Positions 23,165 to 39,138 of a stretch of 64,000 nucleotides of DNA are shown piece after piece; the first letter of the stretch is position 1, and each line of letters begins with the position of its first letter. Both the position numbers and the translations under genes were made by a program. Below the pieces are notes generated by a model, which saw only the letters and a program-made list of their open reading frames with translations, searched no databases and was not told where the DNA came from. Source of the DNA: Rhizobium leguminosarum (GTDB lineage Bacteria > Pseudomonadota > Alphaproteobacteria > Rhizobiales > Rhizobiaceae); contig NZ_CP016291.1 in the NCBI RefSeq assembly GCF_001679785.1, positions 186,001 through 250,000 of the forward strand, given 5' to 3'.

Positions 23165-23388
23165 TTCCGCACCTACCCCATGCTACCAAGCAAGACGCTA
23201 TTTCGAGATTGAGACGTTTCTCGGATGGCTTTCCTTGGGTCGGCGATGAAAAAATTATCGCGAATTTTGAAAGCCGCGACATCCATGGGTCGCGGCCAGA
23301 CAGATCGTCCCCGTCGCAAAGGCGCATGATGAGGACAGAGTCGGCCAGGGACATGATCTGTCATCTCCCAAATCGCGAAAGGACCTCC

Positions 23389-24300
23389 ATGTCCGCTCAA
23401 CCGCCTGTCCCCACCGAAAGGGGCATCCTGCAGTTTCTCGCGATTTGCGATTCCTTCTATCCGCCAGACGCCGTTCAAGCATCGATCGAACAGCAGCGAC
23501 ATTGGTACGACGCTCTCTGCGCGCGTTTCGACCGCCCGCTGCCCCCGGAGATGATCTTTGCGGACGGCATGCTCCAGCGCATACCGATCCGGCGTTACCG
23601 TCCACGGAAAATCGGCACGCGCACCATTCTGCTCTATCTTCATGGCGGCGGCTTCGTTGTCGGTTCGCTCGAGAGCCATCATGCCATCTGCGCCGAGATC
23701 GCCGATTTTGCCGGCGCGGAACTTGTTTCGGTCGATTACCGGCTGGCCCCTGAATATCGCTGGCCGGCGCAGACGGATGACGGCTTTACCGTATTGAAGC
23801 ATCTGCTTTCCGCCAACAGCAAGGTCGTGTTGATCGGCGACAGCGCCGGGGCCAATCTGGCGGCGGGCCTTGCATTGCGCGCGCGCGACGAGGGCCTGTC
23901 CGGAGTCGTCGGCCAAGTTCTGATCTACCCGACGCTCAGCGGGAACCTCGATGCGGGTTCCTATGCCGAAATGGCTGCAGCGCCGGGACTGACGACGGCG
24001 GATGTCGCTTATTATCGTGAGATGCTGCAGGCGCCGGCAGGCAATGAGATCGCCGAGCCGCTGCAGGCAGCTTCGCTTACCGGACTGCCGCCGGCCTTCA
24101 TCACGGTCGCCTATTTCGATCCCCTCCGGGACGACGGCCGGCACTATGCCGCCCGGCTCGCCGCGGAGGGCGTTGAAGTCTGGTTCCGGGAGGAGCCGCA
24201 GATGGTGCACGCCTGGCTCCGCGCCCGCCACATGAGCGATGGCGCACGCGATGGCTTCCGCGCCGTCTGCGAGGCCGTCCGGCGTTTGGCAATGGCCTAA
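23389..24300 (+). CDS. Alpha/beta hydrolase of the hormone-sensitive lipase family
   Basis: A 303-residue esterase-type hydrolase. The oxyanion HGGG motif is at 85-88, the nucleophile S152 is in GDSAG (150-154), the acid is D244 or D248 (YFDPLRDD) and the histidine H274 is in MVHAW. This is the type IV (HSL-like) carboxylesterase layout for short acyl esters. The ATG at 23389 has AAAGGA five bases upstream; the frame is open from 23209 but without a ribosome site. The gene ends 3 bases from the end of the convergent CocE-family gene. The substrate is unknown. Confidence 0.88.
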   Translation: MSAQPPVPTERGILQFLAICDSFYPPDAVQASIEQQRHWYDALCARFDRPLPPEMIFADGMLQRIPIRRYRPRKIGTRTILLYLHGGGFVVGSLESHHAICAEIADFAGAELVSVDYRLAPEYRWPAQTDDGFTVLKHLLSANSKVVLIGDSAGANLAAGLALRARDEGLSGVVGQVLIYPTLSGNLDAGSYAEMAAAPGLTTADVAYYREMLQAPAGNEIAEPLQAASLTGLPPAFITVAYFDPLRDDGRHYAARLAAEGVEVWFREEPQMVHAWLRARHMSDGARDGFRAVCEAVRRLAMA

Positions 24301-24303
24301 CGA

Positions 24304-26307
24304 TCACATCAGGTCACGCGCGATCCGCTTTTCCGCAAAGACCTTTTCGAAGATCTGCACGTCGTCCTCGAAGGCGGTGACGACAGCGCTGATGATCCAA
24401 TCGGTCCGGGTGCAGGCAATCCGTGCGGTCGCCACCGTCCGGGCGAACCAGCCGGGGCGGCGCATGTCGCAGGTCCAGGTCGAGGTCCCGGTCATCGACT
24501 GGGGATTATCGGGTGAAATCGACCAGACTTCTTCCCGCGATTGCCGGGTCGAGAGACCTGTCTCAGGGTGTTCGGTGAGCCCCGTATCCTCGTGGATGTG
24601 ATAGTCCGTTCGGGCGGCTGAGAGGTCGCGGACGACCTGCCGCTTCGTTACGGCGGCCGCGTGCTCGATGTATTTCGGCAGGGGATCGGGATTGGCCGGT
24701 TCCTTAATGTCGATCCGCTGGTGCTCGCCGAGCACCGGCAGCCCCAGGCCGAGCGCCGCGATATCGACCTCGATGCCTTCGTCATCAGGCGGCGGCAGGA
24801 TCATCGGCCAATATGCGGTGGAAAGCGAAAGGCGGATGCGATGCCCCTTGCGGAAGCGGTAACCGCAAGTATCGAGCACGAGCCGGATCGACACCGTCTC
24901 GCCTGGCATCAGCGGCTTGGGATCGGCATTGCCGTCGCGGTGGGTAAGATTGACAACGCCGAAGGCGACACGCGTTGCCGTGCCATCGGGATGGACATCG
25001 ACGAGCCGGGCGCAGAGATTTCCGTTTGCCGCCCGGGAGCGCAGGCCAAGTGTCAGCACCGGCCGGCCGAGATAGTCGTGATCCCTCGTAAGCGGCATCG
25101 AATCGAAGACTAGCGAGCCGGCATCGTCCGAGCGTTGATCGATCGCCATTTCCGCATCGGGTTTCAGCGTGAAATATTCACCCGATGCCGTCCCGGTGTC
25201 GAGCGGAGAGCGGAGATAGACGGGATGTTCGGGCGCGTGCGGAATCGGCATGCCTTCCGTCAACTTGCCGAACTGCTCGACATAGAAGCACTGCATCTGC
25301 GGCGGCGACCAGAGATCCTTGGCGATCCAGAAACCCGGATCGCTGTCGCGTCGCGGCGCAGGGCGGATGGCATCGAGAATATAGGCGCGGGCCTGCGGCA
25401 GCCTGTCGATCCCATTGTCCTCCCCCCGCAGCCATTTGTTCCACCAGGCGATCGCTTCGCCATGAAAATCGGTGCGCGGCTTCGGCCAGGCGAAATGCGG
25501 ATACTTGTGGACCCAGGGGCCGATCAGCGCCTTTGCCCTGTCGCCCAGGCCTTCGACCGCCATCAGAGGCGTATTGCGATAGCCGTCAGCCCAGCCGGCG
25601 ATGACCAGCGCCGGGATTTCCACGCTCGAAAAATCCTCCGAGATCGAGCCATGACGCCAGAAATCATCGCGCCGCTGATGGGCCAGCCACTCCTCCATGA
25701 AGAAGGGTTCGCCTGCCAGGCGTTCCAGCCACATTTCCTTCCAGCGCTCGCCGACAAGCGCGGGGTCGGGCGGCCGCGACTGGTAGCCAAGCATCGTCGC
25801 CGCCCATGAGAGCTGGGCGGAGAGATGGCAGCCGTTCTTGTAGTGGATGTCGTCGTTGTATCGGTCGACGGTCGAGGCGATCGAGATGACGGCCTTCAGC
25901 GCCGGCGGGCGCAATGCTGCGACCTGCAGGCTGTTGAAGCCGCCCCAGGAAATGCCCATCATGCCGACCGCGCCGTTCGACCATGGCTGCGCGGCAATCC
26001 AGGCGATCAGCTCGCAGGCATTGGCAAGCTCGCTTTCGGTATATTCGCCGTCGATGACCCCGTCGGATTCTCCGGATCCGCGGATATCGACACGCACGCC
26101 GGCAATGCCTGCGGCCGCGAATACCGGATAGGTCGACTCGTCCCGCAGACTGGTCCCGTCCCGCTTGCGATAGGGCAGGAATTCGAAAACGGCGGGAACG
26201 GGATCTTCGCTAGCGCCATCCGGCATCCAGATGCGCGCGGCAAGCCGCGTCCCATCCTTCAGTATAATCCATTCATTCTCGATGGTGGTGAAGCCGCGCG
26301 AGATCAT
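24304..26307 (-). CDS. CocE/NonD-family serine hydrolase
   Basis: A 667-residue alpha/beta hydrolase of the CocE/NonD (X-Pro dipeptidyl-peptidase S15) family: an N-terminal catalytic domain with nucleophile S120 in GISWGG, an inserted helical cap, and a C-terminal jelly-roll (LRIRLVLDTCGYRFRKGHRIRLSLSTAYWP region). Members cleave acyl esters, amides or X-Pro peptides; some act on cocaine or glutaryl amides. The ATG at 26307 lies six bases after AAGGA; in-frame starts at 26313 and 26325 are poorer. It is the last gene of the minus-strand operon containing the peptide-type importer and carnitine genes, suggesting that it processes an imported conjugate. The substrate is not known. Confidence 0.85.
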   Translation of the reverse strand: MISRGFTTIENEWIILKDGTRLAARIWMPDGASEDPVPAVFEFLPYRKRDGTSLRDESTYPVFAAAGIAGVRVDIRGSGESDGVIDGEYTESELANACELIAWIAAQPWSNGAVGMMGISWGGFNSLQVAALRPPALKAVISIASTVDRYNDDIHYKNGCHLSAQLSWAATMLGYQSRPPDPALVGERWKEMWLERLAGEPFFMEEWLAHQRRDDFWRHGSISEDFSSVEIPALVIAGWADGYRNTPLMAVEGLGDRAKALIGPWVHKYPHFAWPKPRTDFHGEAIAWWNKWLRGEDNGIDRLPQARAYILDAIRPAPRRDSDPGFWIAKDLWSPPQMQCFYVEQFGKLTEGMPIPHAPEHPVYLRSPLDTGTASGEYFTLKPDAEMAIDQRSDDAGSLVFDSMPLTRDHDYLGRPVLTLGLRSRAANGNLCARLVDVHPDGTATRVAFGVVNLTHRDGNADPKPLMPGETVSIRLVLDTCGYRFRKGHRIRLSLSTAYWPMILPPPDDEGIEVDIAALGLGLPVLGEHQRIDIKEPANPDPLPKYIEHAAAVTKRQVVRDLSAARTDYHIHEDTGLTEHPETGLSTRQSREEVWSISPDNPQSMTGTSTWTCDMRRPGWFARTVATARIACTRTDWIISAVVTAFEDDVQIFEKVFAEKRIARDLM

Positions 26308-26358
26308 GCTCATTCCTTGATGCACATTTCATGAGACGAGGGTTCCGCCCCCGTCAGG

Positions 26359-27990
26359 TCAGTTACCGGCGCTCTCCATGCGGCGCGTGGCAAGCACCCG
26401 TTCCAGCCAGCCGATTTCCATTTCCGGCACGGATTTCAACAGCAGATCGGTGTAATCGTCAAACGGCGGCGACAGCGCCGTCGATTTCGGACCGAACCGC
26501 ACCAGCTGGCCGCGATGCATCACCGCCACGCTGTCGGCGATCGCCCGGACGATTGCGATGTCGTGGGTAATGAAGACGTAGGACAGCTGCTCTTCTTCTT
26601 GCAAGCGCAGCAGCAGCTTGAGGATACCCTCCGCCACCAGCGGATCGAGCGCCGAGGTCGGCTCGTCGCAGAGGATGAGTTCCGGCTTGGCGGCAAGCGC
26701 TCGCGCGATCGCCACGCGCTGCTTCTGCCCGCCGGAGAGTTCGGCCGGGTAGCGATCGACGAAGCCCTTGCCCATCTCGATCTGATCGAGCAGTTCCTTC
26801 ACCCGCGCAGTTTTCTCGGCACCTCTCAGACCATAATAGAAGGTCAGCGGGCGGCCGATGATGTCGCGGACCGTCTGGCGCGGGTTCATCGCCGTATCGG
26901 CCATCTGGTAGATCAGCTGGATTCGCCTCAGATCGTCGTTCGGCCGGCTCTTCAGACCCGGCATCAGCGGCTTGCCGTCAAAGACGATGCGCCCGCTGCT
27001 CGGCGGCAACAGGCCGGTAATGACGCGCGCCAGGGTCGATTTGCCGGAACCGGATTCGCCGACGACCGCGAGCGTCTGCCCCTTCGGCACGTGCAGCGTG
27101 ACATCGTGCAGCACTTTGAAGCCGTTGGAATATTCGGCGCTGACATTTTCGACCTTAAGAAGTGCCGTGGACTGGTCGGCGGCTTCCTCGCGGTAGGCCT
27201 GCCTGACATTGACGAGAGCGCGGGTATAGTCCTCCCGCGGCGCCTCGATGATCTGCTGGACACTGCCATATTCTACCTGCTTGCCATAACGCAGGACCAT
27301 GATGTCGTCCGAAATCTGGGCGACGACGGCAAGGTCATGGGTGATGTAGAGGGCGGCCGTGTGCGTTTCCTCGATGGCATGCTTGATCGCCGCCAGCACG
27401 TCGATCTGCGTGGTGACATCAAGCGCTGTCGTCGGCTCGTCGAAGACGATGAGTTCGGGGTTGGAGCAGAGCGCCATCGCCGTCATCGCGCGCTGCAGCT
27501 GGCCGCCGGAGACCTGGTGGGGAAAGCGCTCGCCGAAGGTTTCGGGATTGGGCAGGCCGAGAACCCCGAACAGATAAAGCGCCCGTTTGCGCGCCTCGTC
27601 TTTGCTCATCAAACCATGCTTGACCGACGCTTCGATCACCTGATCGCCGAGCCTGTGCGCCGGATTGAAGGCGGCCGCCGCCGACTGCGCGACATAGCAG
27701 ACCCGGGCGCCGCGAATTTTACGGATGCCGTTCTTGCCGAGCGCCAGGATATCGGTGCCGTCGAGCCGCACCTCGCCGCCGGTGATTTCGGCGCCGCCCC
27801 GGCCATAGGCAAGCGCGGAAAGGCCGATCGTCGACTTGCCGGCGCCCGATTCCCCGATGAGGCCGAGAACCTTACCCTTCTGCAGGTCGAAGGAAACGCC
27901 GTCGACGATCGTCACCCGCCTGGGCGGTTCGCCCGGCGGATAGCTGGTCGCTTCGATCTTCAGATTGCGAACGGAAAGAAGCTCAGGCAT
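26359..27990 (-). CDS. Dipeptide/oligopeptide-type ABC transporter, fused double ATPase
   Basis: A 543-residue protein with two ABC ATPase domains of DppD/DppF (GsiA) type. The first has GESGAGKST, VSGGQLQRAMTAMAL and IVFDEPTTALDV. The second has GESGSGKST, LSGGQKQRVAIARAL and LILCDEPTSALDP. All motifs look catalytic. It overlaps the permease gene by eight bases. It would energise the two permeases encoded just upstream. The system's place inside the carnitine operon suggests a substrate other than peptides. Confidence 0.93.
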   Translation of the reverse strand: MPELLSVRNLKIEATSYPPGEPPRRVTIVDGVSFDLQKGKVLGLIGESGAGKSTIGLSALAYGRGGAEITGGEVRLDGTDILALGKNGIRKIRGARVCYVAQSAAAAFNPAHRLGDQVIEASVKHGLMSKDEARKRALYLFGVLGLPNPETFGERFPHQVSGGQLQRAMTAMALCSNPELIVFDEPTTALDVTTQIDVLAAIKHAIEETHTAALYITHDLAVVAQISDDIMVLRYGKQVEYGSVQQIIEAPREDYTRALVNVRQAYREEAADQSTALLKVENVSAEYSNGFKVLHDVTLHVPKGQTLAVVGESGSGKSTLARVITGLLPPSSGRIVFDGKPLMPGLKSRPNDDLRRIQLIYQMADTAMNPRQTVRDIIGRPLTFYYGLRGAEKTARVKELLDQIEMGKGFVDRYPAELSGGQKQRVAIARALAAKPELILCDEPTSALDPLVAEGILKLLLRLQEEEQLSYVFITHDIAIVRAIADSVAVMHRGQLVRFGPKSTALSPPFDDYTDLLLKSVPEMEIGWLERVLATRRMESAGN

Positions 27991-28810
27991 CGCCGCGCCC
28001 TCCCTTGAGGCTGGATGTGCGTTTCAGGAGCCAGTCGACGACGAGATTGACGCAGACGGCAAGTGTCGCGATCGCGGTGCCCGGCACCAGCGCTGCCGAG
28101 ATACCGAAGATGATGCCGTCCTTGTTGTCCTTGACCATGCCGCCCCAATCGGCCGCGGGCGGCTGAATGCCGAGGCCGAGGAAGGAAAGCGTCGAGAGGA
28201 ACAGGATCGAGAAGGCGAAGCGCAAGCCGAATTCGGCAAGCAGCGGCGACAGCGTGTTCGGCAGGATTTCGCGGAAGATGATCCAGAGCTTGCCTTCGCC
28301 GCGCAGCGTCGCAGCCTCGACGAATTCCATCACCGCGACATCGAGCGCCACGGCGCGGCCGAGACGGTAGACGCGGGTGGAATCGAGGATCGCCATGACA
28401 AGGATCAGCACGACGATATTCTGCGGCAGCACCGCAAGAACCACGAGCGCGAAGATCAGCGTCGGGATCGACATCATCAGATCGTTGAAGCGTGAGAGGA
28501 CGGTGTCGACCACGCCGCGCGAGACGGCGGCGGTGAAGCTCAGGATGATGCCGAGCGAGAAGGAGATGACGGTGGCGGCGGAAGCGACCACCAGCGTCGT
28601 GCGTGCGCCGTAGATCAGCCGCGAGAAGATGTCGCGGCCGAGATTGTCGAGGCCGAAGATATATTGATCATCCGGCATCTGCCAGACGTCGCCGACGACC
28701 TGCGTCTCGCCATAAGGAGCGATCCATGGTGCGAAGATTGCGAAGATGAAGGCGATGGCGATACCGGCCATGCCGATCCAGGCGGTGATGGGGATGTCTC
28801 TCAATCTCAT
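27983..28810 (-). CDS. Dipeptide-type ABC transporter permease, DppC-like
   Basis: A 275-residue permease with about six helices. The N-terminal block MRLRDIPITAWIGMAGIAIAF and the cytoplasmic coupling loop (MEFVEAATLRGEGKLWIIFREILPNTLSPLLAEFG) are of the DppC/OppC type. The start overlaps the end of the DppB-like gene by four bases (ATGA) and its end overlaps the ATPase gene by eight bases, so the three are translationally coupled. Confidence 0.92.
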   Translation of the reverse strand: MRLRDIPITAWIGMAGIAIAFIFAIFAPWIAPYGETQVVGDVWQMPDDQYIFGLDNLGRDIFSRLIYGARTTLVVASAATVISFSLGIILSFTAAVSRGVVDTVLSRFNDLMMSIPTLIFALVVLAVLPQNIVVLILVMAILDSTRVYRLGRAVALDVAVMEFVEAATLRGEGKLWIIFREILPNTLSPLLAEFGLRFAFSILFLSTLSFLGLGIQPPAADWGGMVKDNKDGIIFGISAALVPGTAIATLAVCVNLVVDWLLKRTSSLKGGRGDA

Positions 28811-29814
28811 CTTGGATGCCTCAGCCTGGGATTGGCGATAATCGCGAGAATATCGGCCGTCATGTTGAGGAAGATGTAGACAGCCGCGAAGATCAGGCCG
28901 CAGGCTTGCACGACGGGCATGTCGCGCACGGTGACCGCATCGACCATGTACTGCCCCATGCCGGGATAGACGAAGACCACTTCGACAACGACGACACCGA
29001 CCACGAGATAGGCAAGCGTCAATGCGATGACGTTGATGATCGGCGCGAGCGCATTGGGGGCGGCATGCTTGACGATCGACCGGAAGGCGCTGAGTCCCTT
29101 CAGCTCTGCGGTCTCCATATAGGCCGACGACATGACGGAGAGGATTGCTGCGCGCGTCATGCGCATCATATGCGCGAGTACGACGAGCACGAGGGTCGCC
29201 GTCGGCAGCGCGATTGCCTTCAACCGCTCGACGAAACCCATGCTGTCATAGACCGTCGCCGGAAAGGTGGCCACGCCGAACTTGACCGCGAAGAACAGGA
29301 TCAGCAGGTAGCCGACGAAGAATTCCGGCAGCGAGATCGCCGCAAGCGAGATGACGTTGATGATCTTATCCGGCAGGCGGTTGCGGAAATGCACCGACAG
29401 CATGCCGAGCCCAACGGCGAGCGGCACCGATATCACGGCCGCGAAACCCGCCAGGAAGAGCGAATTGCCAAGGCGCTTGCCGATCTGTTCGCTCACCGAA
29501 TTCTTGCTGGCCCAGGAGGTGCCGAAGTCACCCTGGACGGCGTTGCCGAGCCACTCGACGTAGCGCGTCGTGATTGGACGATTCAGCCCGAGATCCTCTC
29601 GAATATTGGCGACGGCCTGCGGTGTCGCCGACTGGCCGAGATAGGTGGTGGCAAAATCGCCGGGCAGGGCTTCAAGGCCGCCGAAGATCACGATGGAAAC
29701 GGCAAAGAGCAGGACGATACTGAGCAAGAAGCGCTCGAGGATAAGGGCAAGCAGCGGAAAACGCTGCCGAAACCCGAGGCCGGGCAAGATATTGCTTGGG
29801 GCAGGATTGGTCAT
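28807..29814 (-). CDS. Dipeptide-type ABC transporter permease, DppB-like
   Basis: A 335-residue permease of the DppB/OppB family: an N-terminal helix followed by a periplasmic segment with LPGDFATTYLGQSATPQAVANIREDLGLNRPI, then five helices and the coupling loop MMRMTRAAILSVMSSAYMETAELKGLS. Forms the heterodimeric channel with the DppC-like subunit. It is separated from the binding-protein gene by 97 bases that contain a stem-loop. Confidence 0.92.
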   Translation of the reverse strand: MTNPAPSNILPGLGFRQRFPLLALILERFLLSIVLLFAVSIVIFGGLEALPGDFATTYLGQSATPQAVANIREDLGLNRPITTRYVEWLGNAVQGDFGTSWASKNSVSEQIGKRLGNSLFLAGFAAVISVPLAVGLGMLSVHFRNRLPDKIINVISLAAISLPEFFVGYLLILFFAVKFGVATFPATVYDSMGFVERLKAIALPTATLVLVVLAHMMRMTRAAILSVMSSAYMETAELKGLSAFRSIVKHAAPNALAPIINVIALTLAYLVVGVVVVEVVFVYPGMGQYMVDAVTVRDMPVVQACGLIFAAVYIFLNMTADILAIIANPRLRHPR

Positions 29815-29843
29815 GGCGAGGACCTCGCGCTAAAACGTCGGGA

Positions 29844-29870
29844 GGACCGCGGGTTTTCATCCCCCGGTCC
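29844..29870 (-). promoter_or_regulatory. Stem-loop between binding-protein and permease genes
   Basis: GGACCG pairs with CGGTCC and GGG with CCC across a 7-base loop, with small bulges. Such hairpins after a binding-protein gene commonly stabilise its message or reduce read-through into the membrane-subunit genes, giving an excess of binding protein. Confidence 0.5.
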
Positions 29871-29911
29871 AGGCTTCGTTGGAGATCGGAGGGGCAAACG
29901 CCCCCATGCCC

Positions 29912-31501
29912 TCAGGCGTCCAGCCAGACGCGGGTCGCGACGTAACCGTTCGACATGTCGTTGCCGATGTCGTGGACATAACCCTTCACCTGCTTGGTGG
30001 AGGCGTTCACGAAATCGTTGAACATCGGCAGGATGACCCCACCTTCGTCGCGCACCGTCATCGCCATGTTGCGATACATGTCCTTGCGCTTGGCTTCATC
30101 AAGTTCGGAGCGGGCCTCCAGCAACAGCTTGTCGAAGTCAGGACGCTTGAACTTGGTGTCGTTCCAGTCCGCCGTCGAGAGATAGGCGGTGGAATACATC
30201 TGGTCCTGGGTCGGACGGCCACCCCAGTAGGAGGTCGAGAAGGGTTGGACGTTCCAGACGTTGGTCCAGTAGCCGTCGCCCGGTTCGCGCTTGACCTCGA
30301 TCTCGATGCCGGCCTTCTTGCAGCTTTCCTGGTAGAGGACGGCTGCATCGACACCGCCGGGGAAGGCGACTTCGGAGGTGCGCAGAAGCACCGAACCGCT
30401 ATGGCCCGACTTCTTGTAGTGGAACGCGGCCTTGTCAGGATCGTAAACACGCTGCTCGATGCCCTCGGGAAACAGCGCATAAGTGCTGTTGATCGGGAAG
30501 TCGTTGCCGACCTTGCCGTAACCGCCGAGAATCTTCTCCACCATGGTCTCGCGGTCCATGGCGTATTTGAGGGCGAGGCGCAGGTCGTTGTTGTCGAACG
30601 GCGCCTTGTCGCAATGCATGATGAAGACGTAGTGGCCGCGGCCGGCGGTCGAGAGGATCTCGACGTTCGGGGCGCGCTTCAGCAGATTGACGGTCTTCGG
30701 GTCGACGCGGTTGATATAGTGCACCTGGCCGGACGACAGGGCCGCGATGCGGGCGGTAGCGTCGTTCATGCCGATGATTTCGATCGAATCCACATAGCCG
30801 CGGTCGGTGCGCCAGTCGTCCTTGTTCTTTTCGAAGGTGGCGCGGACGCCGGGCTCAAAGCTCGTCATCTTGTATGGGCCGGTGCCGATCGAGGCGAGAG
30901 GATCGTCGACGCCGCCGTTCGGCTGGATGACCAGGTGGTAGTCCGACAGCAGCAACGGCATGTCGGCATTGCCTTCGCTGAGCGTCAGTACGAGATTGCC
31001 GCCGTCGGCCTTGATCTCCTTGATCGAGCCGAGAACACCGAGCGCGCCGGACTCCGACTTCGCGTCGGTATGACGCTTCAGCGTCGCAACGACGTCGTCG
31101 ATCGTCAGTTCCTTGCCATCGTGGAACTTGACGCCCTTGCGGATCTTGAAGGTCCAGGTAACAGCGTCCTTCGACGGCTCCCAGGATTCGGCAAGCGAGG
31201 GCACGGCCGCACCCGTCAGTGGATCGGACTCGACCAGCATGTCGCCCCAGCAGCGGCCGATGCAGAACATGACCTGCGACAGAAACTTTGCCGGATCCTT
31301 CGAATCGGTGGCTGCACCGCCTTCGAGGCCGAGCTTCAGGTGGCCGCCGCGCTTCGGTTCAGCGGCTTCGGCACTTTCGGTGAAGAGCTTGTCGGCGACG
31401 GCAAGTGTGATGCCGGCCGCCATGGCGCGTCCCATGAATTCGCGGCGGCTGAGCCCGCCGGCGGTGACACGGCTTGCGAGATATTTGGTGTAGTCGTTCA
31501 T
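29912..31501 (-). CDS. Peptide/opine-type ABC transporter substrate-binding protein (Tat signal)
   Basis: A 529-residue DppA/OppA-family (SBP_bac_5) periplasmic binding protein. The N-terminus carries a twin-arginine signal (LSRREFMGRAMAAGITLAVA), so it is likely exported folded by Tat. Family landmarks are ESWEPSKDAVTWTFKIRKGVKFHDGKELTIDDVVATL and IGTGPYKMTSFEPG. It follows the enoyl-CoA hydratase gene by 118 bases in the same direction. Family members bind peptides, opines, nickel or quaternary amines; the linked gamma-butyrobetaine/carnitine enzymes make a trimethylammonium compound or its conjugate the favoured ligand (inference). Confidence 0.88.
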   Translation of the reverse strand: MNDYTKYLASRVTAGGLSRREFMGRAMAAGITLAVADKLFTESAEAAEPKRGGHLKLGLEGGAATDSKDPAKFLSQVMFCIGRCWGDMLVESDPLTGAAVPSLAESWEPSKDAVTWTFKIRKGVKFHDGKELTIDDVVATLKRHTDAKSESGALGVLGSIKEIKADGGNLVLTLSEGNADMPLLLSDYHLVIQPNGGVDDPLASIGTGPYKMTSFEPGVRATFEKNKDDWRTDRGYVDSIEIIGMNDATARIAALSSGQVHYINRVDPKTVNLLKRAPNVEILSTAGRGHYVFIMHCDKAPFDNNDLRLALKYAMDRETMVEKILGGYGKVGNDFPINSTYALFPEGIEQRVYDPDKAAFHYKKSGHSGSVLLRTSEVAFPGGVDAAVLYQESCKKAGIEIEVKREPGDGYWTNVWNVQPFSTSYWGGRPTQDQMYSTAYLSTADWNDTKFKRPDFDKLLLEARSELDEAKRKDMYRNMAMTVRDEGGVILPMFNDFVNASTKQVKGYVHDIGNDMSNGYVATRVWLDA

Positions 31502-31619
31502 TCCCCAGTTCCTTCTTTATGGTGCGTTGACAGAACTTCCGGGCAGGTCCGCAGGCGGTTTCCTCTCCACCTCCGGTGCCCGCATCATGCGGGAAAACAG
31601 TGCGGTTGCTGCCGCCTCG

Positions 31620-32402
31620 TTATTGTCCTTTCCAAATGGGGCTTCGCTTCTCGGCAAACGCCCGTGCGCCTTCCAATTGGTCCTCGCTCGAATAGAGCCT
31701 GTCGACCGTCGCAAACTGCCGCTTGGTGATCTTGTTCATGGCAGTCTGGAACGTCGAACCCTCCGCTTCGCGGACGATTTCCTTGATCGCCGCATAGACG
31801 AGCGGCGGCCCGCTCTCGAGCAGCCGGGCAAGCTCCCAGGCTCTTTCCATCAGCCGGTCGGCCGGTAGGATCTCGTTGACGAAACCCCAGCGATGCGCCT
31901 CGTGAACGTCGAGCCAGCGTCCGGTCAAAAGCATGTCCATGGCGATGTGGTAGGGGATGCGTTTCGGCAGCTTGATCGAGGCCGCATCGGCAACCGTGCC
32001 CGAGCGGATTTCCGGCAGGGCGAAACTCGCATGCTCGGCGGCAATGATCAGGTCGGTCGACAGCGCGATCTCCAGACCGCCGCCGCAACAGATACCGTTC
32101 ACCGCACAAATGACCGGCTTGTTGAGGTCGCGCAGTTCCTGCAGCCCGCCGAAGCCGCCGACGCCGTAATCTCCGTCGACCGCATCGCCTGATGCCGCCG
32201 CCTTGAGATCCCACCCGGCACAGAAAAACTTCTCGCCGGCGCCTGAGACGATGGCGACGCGCAGCGTTGGGTCGTCGCGGAAATTTCGGAAGATCAACCC
32301 CAGGGCGCGACTGGTCGCAAGGTCGATGGCATTCGCCTTCGGCCGGTCGATGACGACTTCGAGTACTCCGCCGTCATGTCGTGTGCGAATGTGGTCGCTC
32401 AA
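31620..32402 (-). CDS. Crotonobetainyl-CoA hydratase-like enoyl-CoA hydratase (CaiD-like)
   Basis: A 260-residue crotonase-fold enzyme, closest in feel to carnitinyl-CoA dehydratase CaiD. The oxyanion-hole segments KFFCAGWDLKAA and NGICCGGGLEIALSTD and the PEIRSGTVAD turn are present. It would hydrate crotonobetainyl-CoA to L-carnitinyl-CoA. The start is TTG at 32402 after a GGAGGAGG site; there is no ATG near. It lies six bases after the CoA ligase gene. Function is supported by the neighbouring carnitine enzymes more than by specific residues. Confidence 0.82.
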   Translation of the reverse strand: MSDHIRTRHDGGVLEVVIDRPKANAIDLATSRALGLIFRNFRDDPTLRVAIVSGAGEKFFCAGWDLKAAASGDAVDGDYGVGGFGGLQELRDLNKPVICAVNGICCGGGLEIALSTDLIIAAEHASFALPEIRSGTVADAASIKLPKRIPYHIAMDMLLTGRWLDVHEAHRWGFVNEILPADRLMERAWELARLLESGPPLVYAAIKEIVREAEGSTFQTAMNKITKRQFATVDRLYSSEDQLEGARAFAEKRSPIWKGQ

Positions 32403-32408
32403 CCTATG

Positions 32409-34463
32409 CTACCTCCTCCGCCGTATCAGAGCATCGACTGCAATAACGCCATGCCCTTCGGGAAGAACCATCAATGGATTAATGTCCAGTTCCTCCATGC
32501 ATGCCGCGTTCTTTACGACATAATCTGCCGCTGCTGAGACAGCGCCGACAGCGGCCTCGAGATCGCCTCTCGGCCGACCACGATAGCCATAGATCAATTT
32601 CGCAAGCTTGAGACGTGAAATCGCCGCGTGAATCTGAGTTTTCGTCGCCGGAAGAGGCAGGATGACGGAATCCTCAAGCAATTCAACGAAGATCCCGCCC
32701 GCCCCCAAGGTGAGCGACAATCCGAAGACGGGGTCGCGGATGGCGCCGACAATGAGCTCGGCGACCGGCATATAGATCATCTTCTCGACCAGAAAACCGG
32801 CGTTTGGCGGCATGGCCGCTGCCGCATTCGACACGGCTTCAACATCCTCCAGGTTGAGCGCGACGGCCCTGGCCTCGGTCTTGTGGGCAATGCCGAGCGC
32901 TTTCAGCACGACGGGAAAACCGAGCCGCTCGGCCTGCTCGGCCGCTTGACCGGGAGAGGAGGCCAATAGCCCTTGCGGAACCGGAAGGCCGAAGGCAGCA
33001 AGCTCAGCCTTCGCATCGGCCTCCGTCAGCGTCTCGATTTCGCCGTCCATAGCAGACACGTCAAGCAGCGGCAGGGGAGGCGGACGATCCCACGCCTGGC
33101 CGATGCCGGCGGCGACTTCCGCAGCTGTGATGGCTTCGTCGATACCGCAGAAGGCAATGATGCCGTTTGCCATCAGCCGCTCGGCGATAGGCTCCGGCAT
33201 GTTTTCCGGAAGGGTCGCCAGAAGGCCAGCCAGCGCACTGGTCGCGGCGGCAGCCGCAATGACCGCGTCTGCCGTCATCGCCCATTCGGACGCATCGCAG
33301 CGGTCACCGCGCGGAAAGTCGAGGACGACGAGATTGAGCGCGTAGCCGCCATCGAACATGGCGCTAAAGGCTTCGGTCTGGCGTGCGAGATCGCCCCAGA
33401 CGAAGGTGTGGTAATCAAGCGGATTGGACAGCGTCACCATCTCGCCCAGAACGCGCCGCAGCCGTGGCAATTGTTGCGGCTGCAGTGCAGGGAATTCCAC
33501 GTTGCGACCGACGACAGCATCCGCCATCAGCGAGGCTTCGCCACCGGAACAGCTCATCGACGAGATCGAATGGCTTGTGAGCGGACCGGCGACATGCAGC
33601 AGCTTCAGGGTTTCCAAGAGCGCCGGCAAGGTCCGGACACGGCCGATGCCGAGGCGGGCAAGCACTGCGTCCGCGACGGCATCGCCGCCGGCGAGCGAGG
33701 CGGTGTGCGACACCGCCGCGCGTTTTGCCTGCTCCGACCGACCGACCTTCAGCACGACGACCGGCTTTCTCGACCGCCGGGCAAGGGCGGCCAGGCGTTC
33801 GAGTGACGACAGATCTCCGAAGCCTTCGACATGAAGGCCGAGCGCCGTGACGCGCGGATCGCCGATCAGTGAGCAGGCGACATCGGCAAGCGATGTCCGC
33901 GCCTGATTGCCGGCCGTGACCACATAGGCGATCGGCAGGCCGCGGGTCTGCATGGTCAGGTTGATGGCGATATTCGAAGACTGCGTGAGGATCGCAACGC
34001 CGCGTTCGATGCGCTGCATACCATGCTGGTCAGGCCAGAGCAACGCACCGTCGAGACCGTTGATGAAGCCGTAGCAATTCGGCCCGAGGATCGGCATGTC
34101 GCCAGCAGCCTGCAAAAGGGCCTGCTGCAGCTCGGCGCCGTCGCCGAGTTCACCCGTCGCCTCGCTGAAGCCCGATGCATAACAGACCGCGCCGCCGGCA
34201 CCGGCCTCGGAAAGGCTGCGGACGATTTCGACGGTCAGCGTCCTGTTGACGCCGACGAAGGCGGCGTCCGGCGCCGAAGGCAGATCGGAGACGGAGCGAT
34301 AGCAAGGCCGCCCGAGCACCTCGTCGAGCTTCGGATGGACAGGCCAGATCTCGCCGGCAAATCCCAGGCGGTCGCACTGCTCGATCACCCTGCGCGCCTC
34401 GCGGCCGCCGAAGACGGCGATCGTTTGCGGTCTGAGCAGGCGGTCGAGCGGGCTAGATGTCAT
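32409..34463 (-). CDS. ADP-forming acyl-CoA synthetase, probable gamma-butyrobetainyl-CoA ligase
   Basis: A 684-residue NDP-forming acyl-CoA synthetase with the fused layout CoA-binding domain (LLRPQTIAVFGG at the N-terminus), succinyl-CoA-ligase-like domains with the phosphorylated histidine in AAVSHTASLAGG, and a C-terminal ATP-grasp domain (LGFPVVLKALGIAHKTEARAV). The enzyme would activate gamma-butyrobetaine or carnitine with CoA and ATP. The ATG at 34463 is used because the conserved CoA-binding domain begins there and GGGAG precedes it by nine bases; the longer frame runs into the dehydrogenase gene. Gap to the upstream stop is 4 bases. Substrate is inferred from the operon. Confidence 0.82.
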   Translation of the reverse strand: MTSSPLDRLLRPQTIAVFGGREARRVIEQCDRLGFAGEIWPVHPKLDEVLGRPCYRSVSDLPSAPDAAFVGVNRTLTVEIVRSLSEAGAGGAVCYASGFSEATGELGDGAELQQALLQAAGDMPILGPNCYGFINGLDGALLWPDQHGMQRIERGVAILTQSSNIAINLTMQTRGLPIAYVVTAGNQARTSLADVACSLIGDPRVTALGLHVEGFGDLSSLERLAALARRSRKPVVVLKVGRSEQAKRAAVSHTASLAGGDAVADAVLARLGIGRVRTLPALLETLKLLHVAGPLTSHSISSMSCSGGEASLMADAVVGRNVEFPALQPQQLPRLRRVLGEMVTLSNPLDYHTFVWGDLARQTEAFSAMFDGGYALNLVVLDFPRGDRCDASEWAMTADAVIAAAAATSALAGLLATLPENMPEPIAERLMANGIIAFCGIDEAITAAEVAAGIGQAWDRPPPLPLLDVSAMDGEIETLTEADAKAELAAFGLPVPQGLLASSPGQAAEQAERLGFPVVLKALGIAHKTEARAVALNLEDVEAVSNAAAAMPPNAGFLVEKMIYMPVAELIVGAIRDPVFGLSLTLGAGGIFVELLEDSVILPLPATKTQIHAAISRLKLAKLIYGYRGRPRGDLEAAVGAVSAAADYVVKNAACMEELDINPLMVLPEGHGVIAVDALIRRRR

Positions 34464-34467
34464 CGGC

Positions 34468-35628
34468 TCACGCTCCCAAAGGTCGAAGCAGATCGCGGCT
34501 GATGATATGCCGCTGGATTTCGGAGGTGCCGTCCCAGATGCGCTCCACACGCGCATCGCGCCAGAAGCGGGCGAGCGGCAGGTCGTCCATCAGGCCCATG
34601 CCGCCGAAGATCTGGATCGCCTCGTCGGTGACCCGGGCCAGCATTTCGGATGAGTAGAGTTTGGCCGAGGCGATCTGCCGGTCTGCGGAGAGCCCGGCAT
34701 CGAGCCGCCAGGCGGCGGCGAGCGTCAGCCAATCGGCAGCGTCGATCTCGGTAATCATATCGGCGAGCTTGAACGACACGCCCTGATTGGCGCCGATCGG
34801 CTTGCCGAACTGCTTGCGCTCGGCGGCATAGGGCAGCGTCATGTCGAAGACGCGCCGTGCCCGGCCGACGCAGGTGGCGGCTACGGTCAACCGCGTGCCG
34901 TGGAGCCATTGATTGGCGATATCGAAGCCGCGATGCACCTCGCCCAGCACTTGGGATTTGGGAATCCGGCAATCCGTGAAGCTGAGGGTGCTATTATGGT
35001 AGCCGCGATGCGACACGGAATCGTAGCCCCTGAGGATTTCAAAGCCCGGCGTGCCGCGATCCACCAGGAAGGCGGTGATCTTCTTCTTGATGCCTTTCGA
35101 CGTTTCCTCCTCGCCCGTTGCGGCAAAGACGATGACGAAGTCGGCGACGTCGGCATGGGAGATGAAATGTTTCGTGCCGTTCAGCACGAAGTCGCCGCCG
35201 TCCTGGCGGGCGGCGCATTTCATGCCGCGCACATCGGAACCGGCGTCCGGCTCGGTGATGGCGAGCGCATCGATCTTCTCGCCGCGCACCGCGGGCAGGA
35301 GATAGCGCTCGCGCTGCTCGCCCTCGCAAGCCATCAGGATGCCCGAGGGCCGGCCGAAGAAAACAGTCAGCCCGAGGGAACCGCGCCCGAGCTCCCGCTC
35401 GACCAGCGTGAAGGTGACATGGTCGAGGCCGGCGCCGCCAACCTCTTCCGGGAAATTGCAGGCGTAGAAGCCGAGATCGATGCATTTGCGCTGGATCTCG
35501 CGTCCGAGCTCCGGCGGGACGGCGCCGCTGCGCTCGACCCCGTTTTCATGCGGATAGATTTCAGTTTCGACGAAGGCGCGGACCGTCTCGACGATCATTT
35601 CCTGTTCTTCGCTCAGTCCGAAATGCAT
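34468..35628 (-). CDS. Acyl-CoA dehydrogenase, probable gamma-butyrobetainyl-CoA dehydrogenase
   Basis: A 386-residue FAD acyl-CoA dehydrogenase with standard blocks: N-terminal helical domain (LSEEQEMIVETVRAFVETEIYP), ALAITEPDAGSD flavin/substrate segment, RKQFGKPIGANQGVSFKLADM, and the C-terminal IFGGMGLMDDLPLARFWRDAR with GTSEIQRHIISRDLL. It would oxidise gamma-butyrobetainyl-CoA to crotonobetainyl-CoA, passing electrons to ETF. The ATG at 35628 has AGGAGG at ideal spacing; a much longer frame upstream is rejected. It lies 10 bases after the carnitine dehydrogenase fusion gene. Confidence 0.85.
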   Translation of the reverse strand: MHFGLSEEQEMIVETVRAFVETEIYPHENGVERSGAVPPELGREIQRKCIDLGFYACNFPEEVGGAGLDHVTFTLVERELGRGSLGLTVFFGRPSGILMACEGEQRERYLLPAVRGEKIDALAITEPDAGSDVRGMKCAARQDGGDFVLNGTKHFISHADVADFVIVFAATGEEETSKGIKKKITAFLVDRGTPGFEILRGYDSVSHRGYHNSTLSFTDCRIPKSQVLGEVHRGFDIANQWLHGTRLTVAATCVGRARRVFDMTLPYAAERKQFGKPIGANQGVSFKLADMITEIDAADWLTLAAAWRLDAGLSADRQIASAKLYSSEMLARVTDEAIQIFGGMGLMDDLPLARFWRDARVERIWDGTSEIQRHIISRDLLRPLGA

Positions 35629-35638
35629 GCCGATCCTC

Positions 35639-37129
35639 CTACCGCCTCTGGCCGACGTGACGGCCGGCGCCTTCAGGTGCTGCCAACTTCGCGTGGGCTC
35701 CAGCAATCGCCTTCGCGTGGTTGATGATATCAGCCGGCGCCGGTAGGGCCTTGCCGGCCTTGCTGTCGACATGTAGCAACATGTGCTCGGCGGTTGCGAG
35801 AGCCTCGCCCGTCGCCGTGTCGTGAAGTGTGTGGAAGACGTGCAGCCGTTTCTCGTCGACATCTAGGATCTGGCTGGTCGAATGGATCGTCTGGCCGAGC
35901 TTCGCCTCGCCGAGATGGCGGATGTGGGTTTCCACCGTGTAGTAGCTGTGTCCCGCCTCGACATAGGCGAGATCGACGCCGATGAGGCGCAGTAGCGCAT
36001 CTGATGTATCGCCGAAGACCTGCAGGTAGCGGTGCTCGGTCATATGGCCGTTATAGTCGACCCAGGCGGGGCCGACTTTCGTCTCGACGAGCCTCAGCGG
36101 CTTCGATGGGTCGAAAGACGCGGTCGTCCCGCCGCCTTGCGCCCAGAGCGATTGCTCGAAGTCCTTCAGCAGCTTGCCGGCGCCCCAGCCCTTGCCGCCA
36201 TCGCCGCCCTTGAGGGCCTGCAGGATGCCGACGAGGTTTTCGTCGCGGATGCGTTCGAGCTCGCGGATCGACAGGCCGGCCGCCTGCTCGTCGGATTGCC
36301 GGCCGATCTTTTCGATCAGCGCATCGTCGAGATCGACGACATCGGTGAGCTTGGTCCAGGGCCAAGCAAGGCAGGGGCCGAACTGGGCGAGGAAGTGGCG
36401 CATGCCGGCCTCGCCACCGGCGATGCGGTAGGTCTGGAACAGGCCCATCTGCGCCCAGCGCAGGCCGAAGGAGTAGCGGATGACGTCATCAAGCGTCTCG
36501 ACGGTGCAGATCTCGTCGTGGATCAACCACAAGGCCTCGCGCCAGAGCGCTTCGAGCAGCCGGTCGCCGACGAAAGCCTCGATCTCCTTGGCGATGTGGA
36601 CGCCCTTCATGCCGAGCGGCAGCAGTCTTTCGATCGCCGCCTGGATGGTTGCCGCCGAGGTCTTCTCGCCACCAACGATTTCGACGAGCGGCAGCAGATA
36701 GACGGGATTATAGGGATGGGCGACGAAGAGGCGCTCGGGATGCGTCATATCACGCTGCAGATCGGTCGGCAGCAGGCCTGACGTGGAAGAGCCGATCAGG
36801 GCGTCCGGGCGCGCCACAGCATCGATCTCAGTCAGGACGCCGCGCTTGAGGTCGAGCCTTTCCGGCACGCTTTCCTGAATCCAGTCGGCGCCGGCGACGG
36901 CTTCCGCGAGCGTCGTGCAGAAGGTCAGCCTGCCGCGGGGCGGCAAAGGTGCACCGGTCAGCATGGCATAGGCTTTTTCGGCATTGGCGAGCACTTCGCC
37001 GACGATGCGGCTCGCTTCCGGATGCGGATCGAACACATCAACGTCGATGCCGGCCAGCAGAAACCGCGCGATCCATCCGCCGCCGATGACGCCGCCGCCG
37101 ATACAAGCCGCCTTATTGATCCCAGTCAT
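35639..37129 (-). CDS. L-carnitine 3-dehydrogenase fused to betainyl-CoA thioesterase
   Basis: A 496-residue two-domain enzyme. Residues 1-320 form a 3-hydroxyacyl-CoA dehydrogenase-like carnitine dehydrogenase: NAD motif GGGVIGGGW (11-19) and catalytic H138 in VAHPYNPVYLLPLVE. Residues about 345-490 form a hot-dog thioesterase with the active-site pattern WVDYNGHM (D358). This fusion is known from rhizobial carnitine catabolism, where the dehydrogenase makes 3-dehydrocarnitine and the thioesterase releases glycine betaine from betainyl-CoA. The gene starts 7 bases after the BKACE gene ends. A low-complexity glycine-rich linker (GGDGGKGWGAGK) joins the domains. Confidence 0.92.
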   Translation of the reverse strand: MTGINKAACIGGGVIGGGWIARFLLAGIDVDVFDPHPEASRIVGEVLANAEKAYAMLTGAPLPPRGRLTFCTTLAEAVAGADWIQESVPERLDLKRGVLTEIDAVARPDALIGSSTSGLLPTDLQRDMTHPERLFVAHPYNPVYLLPLVEIVGGEKTSAATIQAAIERLLPLGMKGVHIAKEIEAFVGDRLLEALWREALWLIHDEICTVETLDDVIRYSFGLRWAQMGLFQTYRIAGGEAGMRHFLAQFGPCLAWPWTKLTDVVDLDDALIEKIGRQSDEQAAGLSIRELERIRDENLVGILQALKGGDGGKGWGAGKLLKDFEQSLWAQGGGTTASFDPSKPLRLVETKVGPAWVDYNGHMTEHRYLQVFGDTSDALLRLIGVDLAYVEAGHSYYTVETHIRHLGEAKLGQTIHSTSQILDVDEKRLHVFHTLHDTATGEALATAEHMLLHVDSKAGKALPAPADIINHAKAIAGAHAKLAAPEGAGRHVGQRR

Positions 37130-37136
37130 GCCGTCC

Positions 37137-38039
37137 TCAGCGCTTCGTCAGTTTGAGTTTCCTGCGAACGTCTTCCGGGCCGATGATCCGCGCACCCATG
37201 CCCTCGACCACCTGCACGGCCTTTTCGACGAGCTCAGCATTGGTGGCGAGCTGGCCCTTGCCGACAAAGAGGTTGTCCTCCAGGCCGACGCGCACGTTGC
37301 CGCCGGCGAGAACGGCTGCCGCCGGATAGGCCATGGCGTTGCGGCCGATCGAAAAGGCCGAAAAAGTCCAGCTCTGAGGCACGTTGTTGACCATCGCCAT
37401 GAAGGTGTTGAGATCGTCGGGCGCACCCCATGGAATGCCCATGCAGAGCTGGATCAGCACCGGGTCTTCGATCAGGCCTTCCTCGGCAAGCTGCTTGGCA
37501 AACCAGAGATGGCCGGTGTCGAAGGCTTCGATCTCGGGGCGCACGCCGAGATCCGTCATTTTCTTCGCCATCACCCGCAGCATGGCCGGCGTGTTGGTCA
37601 TGACATAATCGCCGAGGTTGAAGTTCATCGTGCCGCAGTCGAGCGTACAGATCTCAGGCAGGCATTCGGCGACATGGCTGACACGCTCGGTGGCGCCCGC
37701 CATATCCGTTCCCTTTGGATTGAGGGGAAGGGGCTTTTCGACATCCCCGAAGATCAGGTCCCCGCCCATGCCGGCAGTGAGATTGAGGACGACGTCGACA
37801 TCGGCCGAGCGGATGCGGTCGGTGACCTCCCTGTAGAGGTCGTTTCGGCGGCTGGCAGCACCCGTTTCCGGGTCGCGGACATGGCAGTGAACGACCGCAG
37901 CACCGGCCTTTGCCGCGTCGATGGCGGAATCGGCGATCTGCTTGGGAGTGATCGGCACGTGGGTGGATCTGGAAACCGTATCCCCGGCGCCGGTGACGGC
38001 ACAGGTGATGAAAACATCGCGGTTCATCGCAAGAGGCAT
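37137..38039 (-). CDS. Dehydrocarnitine cleavage enzyme (BKACE family)
   Basis: A 300-residue beta-keto acid cleavage enzyme. The metal-binding H51 and H53 are in VVHCHVRDPETG, LDCGTMNFN and the glycine loop LTAGMGGDLIFGD are typical. CdhC-type BKACEs condense 3-dehydrocarnitine with acetyl-CoA to give acetoacetate and betainyl-CoA. First gene of the minus-strand operon, divergent from the CdhR-like regulator; its ATG follows GGAG at nine bases. Together with the next gene it completes carnitine to glycine betaine. Confidence 0.92.
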   Translation of the reverse strand: MPLAMNRDVFITCAVTGAGDTVSRSTHVPITPKQIADSAIDAAKAGAAVVHCHVRDPETGAASRRNDLYREVTDRIRSADVDVVLNLTAGMGGDLIFGDVEKPLPLNPKGTDMAGATERVSHVAECLPEICTLDCGTMNFNLGDYVMTNTPAMLRVMAKKMTDLGVRPEIEAFDTGHLWFAKQLAEEGLIEDPVLIQLCMGIPWGAPDDLNTFMAMVNNVPQSWTFSAFSIGRNAMAYPAAAVLAGGNVRVGLEDNLFVGKGQLATNAELVEKAVQVVEGMGARIIGPEDVRRKLKLTKR

Positions 38040-38077: not shown

Positions 38078-38145
38078 GGATGGACGGCGATGCGTTGCAA
38101 TCTCGGAAGTAATTGATACATTATCGGAACTTAAGGGAGGTGATC

Positions 38146-39138
38146 TTGCTGCAGCGATCGACGGAACGCCTCGATATCGACGTTCTCGTCCTGCCGGATG
38201 CGAACCTGATCCTGATCGCCTCGGTCATCGAGCCGCTGCGCGGCGCCAACCGCATTTCCGGCAGCGAACTCTATCGCTGGCGGCTGCTCACGCCGGACGG
38301 AGCACCGGTCCTGACCACCAGCAATATTGCCGTGCCCGCCCAGGGCGCTTTCAAGGCGACGACCGAGGATGCGCCTCTGTTTGTGCTGGCCAGTTACAAC
38401 TGGCGGCGCAGCGCGACCCCGGCGCTGAAGATGCAGCTCTCCCAGGCTGCCCGCTATCGCACGGTGATTGCCGGCATCGAGTCCGGCACATGGCTGCTGG
38501 CCGAAGCCAGCCTGCTCGACGGGTTGCAGGCGACCGTCCACTGGGAAGACTATGAGGATTTTGCGCTGGCCTATCCTGAGGTACAGGCCGTCAAGGATCG
38601 TTTCGTCATCGACGGCAAGCGCCTGACGACCTCGGGTTCGCTTCCGACCGTCGACCTGATGCTGGAGGTGATCCGGCAACGGCAAGGCTATTCGCTGGCG
38701 CTCGAGGTCAGCCGGCTATTCCGTTACGAGCAACCGTCCTTCCATGCCGATGAGCCTCTTTCCGCAGCCTCGGCCGGACTGCGCATGCACGATCCCCGCG
38801 TGACGCAGGCAGTACGGCTGATGGAGGAGCATATCGAGCAGCCTCTGGTCCTGACACGGCTCGCCCGCCGGGTGGGCATCAGTGCCCGGCATCTGCAGGA
38901 TCTCTTCCAGCAAAGCATCGGCGCACCGCCGCATGTGCATTATCTCGCGCTGCGCTTGAATGCGGCGCGCCGCAAGGTGATCGAGACGACCGCCTCTTTC
39001 GCTGACATCGCCGCGGCGACCGGCTTCAACTCGGCCTCAGCCTTTGCGAGAAGTTACCGGGCGAATTTTTCCGAAAGCCCTTCCGAGACCCGCCGCCGCT
39101 TGCGCCGCCGCATCACGTCATCGCAGGTGCTGGGATAG
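38146..39138 (+). CDS. GlxA-family AraC-type regulator (CdhR-like)
   Basis: A 330-residue regulator with an N-terminal DJ-1/PfpI-like domain (about 5-185) and two C-terminal AraC helix-turn-helix motifs (LTRLARRVGISARHLQDLFQQ and SFADIAAATGFNSASAFARSYRANF). CdhR, the activator of pseudomonad carnitine catabolism, has this architecture. The start is TTG at 38146, five bases after an almost perfect AGGGAGGTGAT ribosome site. The nucleophile elbow reads GIESGTW, so the usual DJ-1 cysteine is missing, as expected for a sensor rather than an enzyme. It is divergent from the operon it probably controls and overlaps the convergent LysR gene by 26 bases. Confidence 0.88.
   Translation: MLQRSTERLDIDVLVLPDANLILIASVIEPLRGANRISGSELYRWRLLTPDGAPVLTTSNIAVPAQGAFKATTEDAPLFVLASYNWRRSATPALKMQLSQAARYRTVIAGIESGTWLLAEASLLDGLQATVHWEDYEDFALAYPEVQAVKDRFVIDGKRLTTSGSLPTVDLMLEVIRQRQGYSLALEVSRLFRYEQPSFHADEPLSAASAGLRMHDPRVTQAVRLMEEHIEQPLVLTRLARRVGISARHLQDLFQQSIGAPPHVHYLALRLNAARRKVIETTASFADIAAATGFNSASAFARSYRANFSESPSETRRRLRRRITSSQVLG

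Follow-up and report, generated by a model that had tools for sequence, protein, structure and literature searches.

Which compounds does an importer bring into the cell when its genes lie between a set of carnitine-degrading enzymes and a putative esterase, and do all three parts serve one pathway? The question is raised by a ten-gene locus of Rhizobium leguminosarum, which we analyzed within a stretch of 64,000 nucleotides (NCBI RefSeq assembly GCF_001679785.1, contig NZ_CP016291.1, positions 186,001 to 250,000 of the forward strand; hereafter "the window"). The locus encodes five enzymes of γ-butyrobetaine and carnitine degradation, a complete ATP-binding cassette (ABC) importer and a hydrolase of the CocE/NonD type. 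Judging from sequence comparison, it is very probably the R. leguminosarum form of an already known rhizobial locus, one that combines carnitine catabolism with the Prb importer. The initial annotation regarded this extended system as having no known precedent, a view that fails, as nine of the ten genes have described counterparts.

The ten reading frames all lie on the minus strand, from 38039 down to 24304, and are presumably co-transcribed. The arrangement is as earlier described, one strand with short gaps or overlaps; in transcription order the gaps are 7, 10, 4, 6, 118, 97, -4, -8 and 33 bases, assuming ATG starts for the acyl-coenzyme A (CoA) dehydrogenase (35628) and the ligase (34463). 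We assigned gene families with Pfam and NCBIfam models, and these bear out the families named before, including the complete importer and CocE/NonD. The features are as follows.

38113..39138, plus strand: GlxA/CdhR-type AraC-family regulator, divergent from the operon (HTH_18, 80 bits); its true start is possibly further in
37137..38039, minus strand: BKACE, the predicted 3-dehydrocarnitine cleavage enzyme (PF05853, 321 bits)
35639..37129, minus strand: L-carnitine 3-dehydrogenase fused to a thioesterase (NF005716, 934 bits; cut-off 592)
34468..35628, minus strand: acyl-CoA dehydrogenase, predicted γ-butyrobetainyl-CoA dehydrogenase (Acyl-CoA_dh domains)
32409..34463, minus strand: ADP-forming acyl-CoA synthetase (the ligase), predicted γ-butyrobetainyl-CoA synthetase (CoA_binding_2, Succ_CoA_lig, ATP-grasp_5)
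31620..32402, minus strand: enoyl-CoA hydratase, predicted crotonobetainyl-CoA/carnitinyl-CoA hydratase (ECH_1, 199 bits; best NCBIfam model NF002936, 312 bits)
29912..31501, minus strand: binding protein SBP1 of the twin-arginine translocation (Tat) type, likely PrbA orthologue (SBP_bac_5, 258 bits)
28807..29814, minus strand: permease, PrbB type (BPD_transp_1)
27983..28810, minus strand: permease, PrbC type (BPD_transp_1, OppC_N)
26359..27990, minus strand: double ATPase, PrbD type (two ABC_tran stretches)
26326..26358, minus strand: 33-base junction between the ATPase and CocE genes, the site of an XRE-type regulator and a second binding protein (SBP2) in 28 of 80 related loci
24304..26325, minus strand: CocE/NonD hydrolase (TIGR00976, 228 bits against a cut-off of 66.3; triad Ser126-Asp247-His273 with oxyanion Tyr52)

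The enzymes are the most familiar part of the locus. A five-enzyme, seven-step pathway has reportedly been worked out in Sinorhizobium meliloti (Bazire et al. 2019, J Bacteriol 201:e00772-18). The window encodes five enzyme families together that match this γ-butyrobetaine/carnitine set, and both the families and the gene order uphold the initial annotation on this point. The likeness extends to the fusion of dehydrogenase and thioesterase and to the divergent regulator, which is present in the S. meliloti-type genome too; the window proteins are 66–89% identical to those of that genome. Unlike the S. meliloti genes, the locus is plasmid-borne in R. johnstonii 3841 and in further relatives. 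From tag 01638 onward the S. meliloti order is that of the window, namely dehydrogenase, acyl-CoA dehydrogenase, ligase, hydratase and binding protein, where SMc01637, SMc01640 and SMc01641 were placed by counting tags rather than from published naming. Published passages ascribe to SM2011_c01638 a dual function, carnitine to 3-dehydrocarnitine and betainyl-CoA to glycine betaine (PMC12482172, citing Bazire 2019), and name SMc01639 a putative acyl-CoA dehydrogenase (PMC12542648). By analogy with the S. meliloti order, and from its place in the operon, BKACE is predicted to act on 3-dehydrocarnitine. The counterpart of the divergent regulator is annotated as GlxA family in R. johnstonii 3841, and we take the window's protein to resemble CdhR. 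Carnitine catabolism in Pseudomonas aeruginosa is reported to involve the regulator CdhR and an acylcarnitine hydrolase (PMC5806209). This hydrolase is known as HocS. Both systems have in common the route through carnitine dehydrogenase and a regulator of the GlxA/AraC type, whereas the P. aeruginosa importer is of a different type. In R. leguminosarum rhizosphere transcriptomes, 3-dehydrocarnitine and betainyl-CoA are named as reporter metabolites in a passage on the sugar beet rhizosphere (PMC8751395), and the pathway may therefore be used near roots.

What does the importer carry? S. meliloti reportedly has an Opp-like importer of proline betaine, PrbABCD (Alloing et al. 2006, J Bacteriol 188:6308). 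The window encodes the same set of components, an Opp-type binding protein, two permeases and an ATPase. SBP1 shares 83% identity with P0032, the binding protein of S. meliloti, and is located three genes after the acyl-CoA dehydrogenase gene. A genome with a 100% match to P0032 carries, in order, the regulator, BKACE, dehydrogenase, acyl-CoA dehydrogenase, ligase, hydratase, binding protein, permease and ATPase (its second permease was lost in simple gene calling). In a tree of 56 binding proteins, SBP1 of the window and that of the S. meliloti type fall in one clade. In passages of the literature, SMc01642 is identified as PrbA (PMC4941405), SMc01642/3/4 are named as proline betaine transport genes (PMC3596328), and R. 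tropici CIAT 899 and PRF 81 are said to hold an orthologue of S. meliloti PrbABCD for proline betaine uptake (PMC3557214). Because of the gene position relative to SMc01638, SMc01639 and SMc01642, the 83% identity and the same order in the genome that holds the S. meliloti protein, the importer is likely the orthologue of PrbABCD.

The initial annotation had linked the importer to carnitine-type betaines and had labelled it peptide-type. The link stands; the label does not. SBP1 scores far below the cut-off of the DppA equivalog (91 against 1005 bits). Asp408 of DppA holds the amino end of the peptide, and in two alignments (one of them by MAFFT) SBP1 has Gly at this position with Arg next to it. 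An Arg in place of Asp408 was considered and rejected, as both alignments give Gly there and the Arg adjacent. This Arg sits in a W-x-x-R-x-T motif found in all 120 homologues listed (120 of 5675 matches). The stricter form W-x-x-R-x-T-x-D is present in 53 of the 56 binding proteins, and the other three retain WGGR but diverge beyond it. On the DppA cut-off, the Asp408 anchor position and the Prb orthology, we reject a peptide importer. At its start SBP1 has the twin-arginine motif SRREFM, recognized by eye, in keeping with the Tat type.

Is the arrangement peculiar to this strain? The genome containing the window is 8.57 Mb in size, with its nearest relatives within the R. leguminosarum complex. 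The same ten genes are annotated in the same order on pRL10 of R. johnstonii 3841, and at least 80% of the stretch is covered in one place in 131 of 254 matching plasmid records. We compared 80 loci, the best 80 of 594 relatives for the binding protein among the matches listed, which represent the near lineage only. All five enzyme genes accompany the importer in 69 loci; four loci have the carnitine dehydrogenase and BKACE without ligase, acyl-CoA dehydrogenase and hydratase; and seven have no carnitine genes locally. CocE is beside the importer in 77 of the 80 loci (one, L005, is cut by a contig end), and 71 of these 77 have carnitine genes. Since 69 loci keep the five enzymes with the importer and 77 keep CocE, the ten-gene arrangement is no chance arrangement. 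The four loci with only carnitine dehydrogenase and BKACE suggest that the importer is tied to carnitine and not to γ-butyrobetaine alone. The GlxA/CdhR-type regulator is present in related loci with carnitine genes and absent from the seven without them. All seven genomes whose importer stands apart from carnitine genes have a carnitine dehydrogenase elsewhere (67–85% identity); in three of them (67–68%) the match is to the dehydrogenase part alone, with a thioesterase match nearby.

We also examined an order-level sample of 397 genomes, in which the binding protein (E-value 1e-150) was found in 35 genomes, the carnitine dehydrogenase (1e-90) in 71 and CocE (1e-120) in 69. All nine genomes with a binding protein of at least 74% identity also have the carnitine dehydrogenase. 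Eight of these proteins are in the SBP1 clade, the one outside it being that of G142.

The last gene of the operon behaves differently. Aligned to cocaine esterase (PDB 1ju3, 3i2g), CocE of the window has a complete Ser126-Asp247-His273 triad and the oxyanion Tyr52, and the equivalents of cocaine esterase Tyr44, Ser117, Asp259 and His287 are kept in all 38 CocE sequences. We took these Tyr, Ser, Asp and His positions to be the catalytic ones and chose the pocket positions by reference to cocaine esterase. CocE, in which we saw no export signal by eye, is probably a cytoplasmic serine hydrolase. While the catalytic positions are those of cocaine esterase, a good part of the substrate pocket is unlike: Gln55 is replaced by Glu (in 35 of 38 sequences), Tyr118 by Trp, Trp151 by Ile, Leu169 by Thr, Phe261 by Tyr, Leu407 by Thr and Phe408 by Leu. 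In the open-licence papers that we read, we found no description of CocE together with Prb or carnitine.

Does CocE follow carnitine catabolism or the importer? In the order-level sample, CocE of at least 62% identity occurs in 20 genomes; all 20 also have the binding protein and only 12 the carnitine dehydrogenase. Thus CocE follows the importer type rather than carnitine catabolism. In four of the other eight genomes (L137 to L140) the binding protein, two permeases, ATPase and CocE are side by side, three of these four with a homologue of the divergent XRE-type regulator (see below); in the remaining four genomes both binding protein and CocE were found. The binding proteins of all eight fall in the SBP2 clade (21 sequences; Shimodaira–Hasegawa-like approximate likelihood ratio test, SH-aLRT, 99), which is separate from the clade with SBP1 of the window and of the S. 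meliloti type (20 sequences, 94; 19 sequences, 96); the tree was made by a quick method that gave a warning on four long branches. We compared active sites between 14 CocE sequences with a carnitine dehydrogenase in the locus or genome and eight from genomes without one. Eleven of the 12 positions compared are identical throughout and one differs in a single sequence; among the columns fixed in both groups, 253 agree and one differs. Such near-identity suggests that the substrate class is the same whether or not carnitine is degraded, although the use of conserved residues may have shifted.

The distance from the ATPase gene to the start of CocE is at most 200 bases in 44 of the 80 loci; in five there is a larger gap without insert, and in three CocE is not local (two of these genomes hold a CocE of 72–73% identity elsewhere, the third only a 41% relative). 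In the remaining 28 loci the gap is filled by a divergent XRE-type regulator (approximately 261 residues, HTH_26) and by SBP2, approximately 66% identical to SBP1. CocE is therefore part of a separable unit, the regulator divergent from SBP2 and then CocE, and since CocE stands behind SBP2 and a divergent regulator in those 28 relatives, it probably has its own promoter there. The S. meliloti-type genome also has both the regulator and the second receptor before CocE, whereas the window has neither. With these two genes absent, CocE of the window sits 33 bases behind the ATPase gene. In L144, L153 and L173, genomes of one genus that may be Mesorhizobium, a single permease set is surrounded by two or three binding proteins of the PrbA-like kind, and two of these three genomes carry a more distant CocE (approximately 46%).

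How did the window come to lack the two genes? Of the 44 Rhizobium loci placed on a tree, 14 carry the regulator-SBP2 insert and 30 lack it, a distribution that requires ten changes (at least eight by starred branches). Shuffled labels need approximately 12, with a number as low as the observed one in 53 to 59 of 500 shuffles, so the insert is hardly clustered on the tree. Even nearest relatives differ: L003 has the insert, the window and L002 do not. The patchiness extends to very close Rhizobium relatives (the window, L003, L147 and L158), and sites without the insert differ in gap length. A search of the window's genome at an E-value of 1e-150, in which three candidates were scored, found no second binding protein. 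The unit also occurs well beyond the genus, which makes loss of the regulator and SBP2 in the window the simpler reading, exchange between strains being the alternative.

We propose the following scheme. The Prb-type importer would bring in free betaines: proline betaine in S. meliloti and, here, presumably carnitine and γ-butyrobetaine. The five enzymes would then convert γ-butyrobetaine to glycine betaine. In the first steps γ-butyrobetaine would be activated with CoA, dehydrogenated and hydrated to carnitinyl-CoA, and carnitine released; in the later ones carnitine would be oxidized to 3-dehydrocarnitine, which is cleaved with acetyl-CoA to betainyl-CoA and acetoacetate, followed by release of glycine betaine. 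The GlxA/CdhR-type regulator probably responds to a compound of the pathway. CocE would derive from a unit of its own, together with the XRE-type regulator and the second PrbA-like receptor; there, an ester or amide may enter by the Prb permease through the second receptor and then most likely be hydrolyzed by CocE. The window would have lost the regulator and receptor, leaving CocE as part of the carnitine operon. What the sequences show directly are the gene families, their order, the orthology by position, the separability of the CocE unit and the conserved active sites, whereas every substrate, the co-transcription and the regulation are inferred. We put forward this role of CocE only tentatively. 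More doubtful is a division of labor in which one Prb permease serves two receptors, SBP1 for free carnitine-type betaines and SBP2, under the XRE-type regulator, for betaine-like esters or amides split by CocE.

Several observations weigh against this scheme. The hydratase is below the equivalog cut-off of NF002936, the crotonobetainyl-CoA hydratase model (312 against 500 bits), although this model may not apply to the S. meliloti pathway in the first place; the window's hydratase is 84% identical to that of the S. meliloti-type genome. BKACE is likewise below the cut-off of every NCBIfam equivalog for other BKACE substrates. The identification of P0032 with PrbA is based on tag order and not on a sequence labelled PrbA. 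Close binding proteins occur in some genomes of the family sample, such as G697 and G444, without carnitine genes in the stretch read, no genome-wide search for the dehydrogenase having been made there. The carnitine dehydrogenase counted as missing in eight of the 20 CocE genomes means no match at 1e-90, with approximately three candidates scored per genome. Finally, CocE is kept beside a carnitine-linked importer in nearly all of the 80 loci, so that a genuine connection with carnitine is conceivable.

Other explanations concern mainly the hydrolase. A real possibility, though we would not favor it outright, is that the substrate of CocE is some imported ester or amide with no relation to carnitine, such as a plant alkaloid or amino ester, and that CocE owes its present position to the loss of regulator and receptor. 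The patchy distribution of the regulator-receptor pair, with its ten changes, agrees with this, as does the lack of common metabolic neighbors around importer loci without carnitine genes. This lack refers to 17 neighbor proteins scanned, 10 plus 7 (three further ones being regulators), one of the 7 coming from L141, a genome with a carnitine dehydrogenase. However, SBP1 and SBP2 are approximately 66% identical and both have the motif WGGRPTQD; their ligands are therefore probably alike, which favors a betaine-like cargo for CocE.

In the explanation offered by the initial annotation, conjugates of carnitine, acylated or amidated, enter through the importer and are cleaved inside by CocE, which frees carnitine or γ-butyrobetaine for degradation; this appears improbable and was not supported. 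The full esterase triad, the short distance to the ATPase gene and the company of carnitine genes in 71 loci are in its favor, and the Glu at the Gln55 position could face a cation. Against this, the importer is likely the orthologue of a free-betaine importer, nearly the same active site recurs in the eight genomes without a detectable carnitine dehydrogenase, and in 28 loci CocE is preceded by its own regulator and receptor. That an ordinary dipeptide importer merely happens to lie next to the carnitine genes is hardly credible: this idea has the sequence family of DppA/OppA on its side, but importer and carnitine genes are linked in 73 of the 80 loci, and the DppA score, the Gly at the Asp408 position and the Prb orthology all contradict it.

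Sigma-70-like promoter matches are at chance level (three seen, 2.4 expected), the sole minus-strand match lying inside CocE; terminator-like matches are near chance (13 against 9.4 expected, standard deviation 3.6); and an Rfam search gave zero matches. A 10-base inverted repeat (90% complementary, 7-base loop), which may be a chance match, lies at 29844–29870 between the binding protein and first permease genes. Three neighbors outside the operon may be mentioned.

23209..24300, plus strand: convergent alpha/beta hydrolase (Abhydrolase_3, 206 bits), often kept beside CocE; at least a partial copy is present in 65 of the 80 related loci, where locus ends may matter, and one of 62% in the S. 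meliloti-type genome
20496..23164, minus strand: sigma-factor-like gene overlapping a long gene; the R. johnstonii counterparts carry the annotations RNA polymerase sigma factor and VWA domain protein
43762..46170, plus strand: GGDEF/EAL protein with a CHASE4 sensor domain, near an amino-acid-type binding protein gene at 42864..43670

To return to the question posed above, the carnitine enzymes and the Prb importer, which appear from the passages cited here to have been the subject of different studies, are united as two halves of one locus. Two points are new: Prb and carnitine catabolism are durably linked in this lineage, and receptor, regulator and CocE are recognized as one unit, the part of the locus that goes beyond described systems. 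It is conceivable, if on the unlikely side, that uptake followed by cleavage in this unit is an undescribed branch of betaine scavenging, kept or lost by Rhizobium independently of the carnitine genes. For the importer the prediction is direct: Prb should carry carnitine and γ-butyrobetaine.

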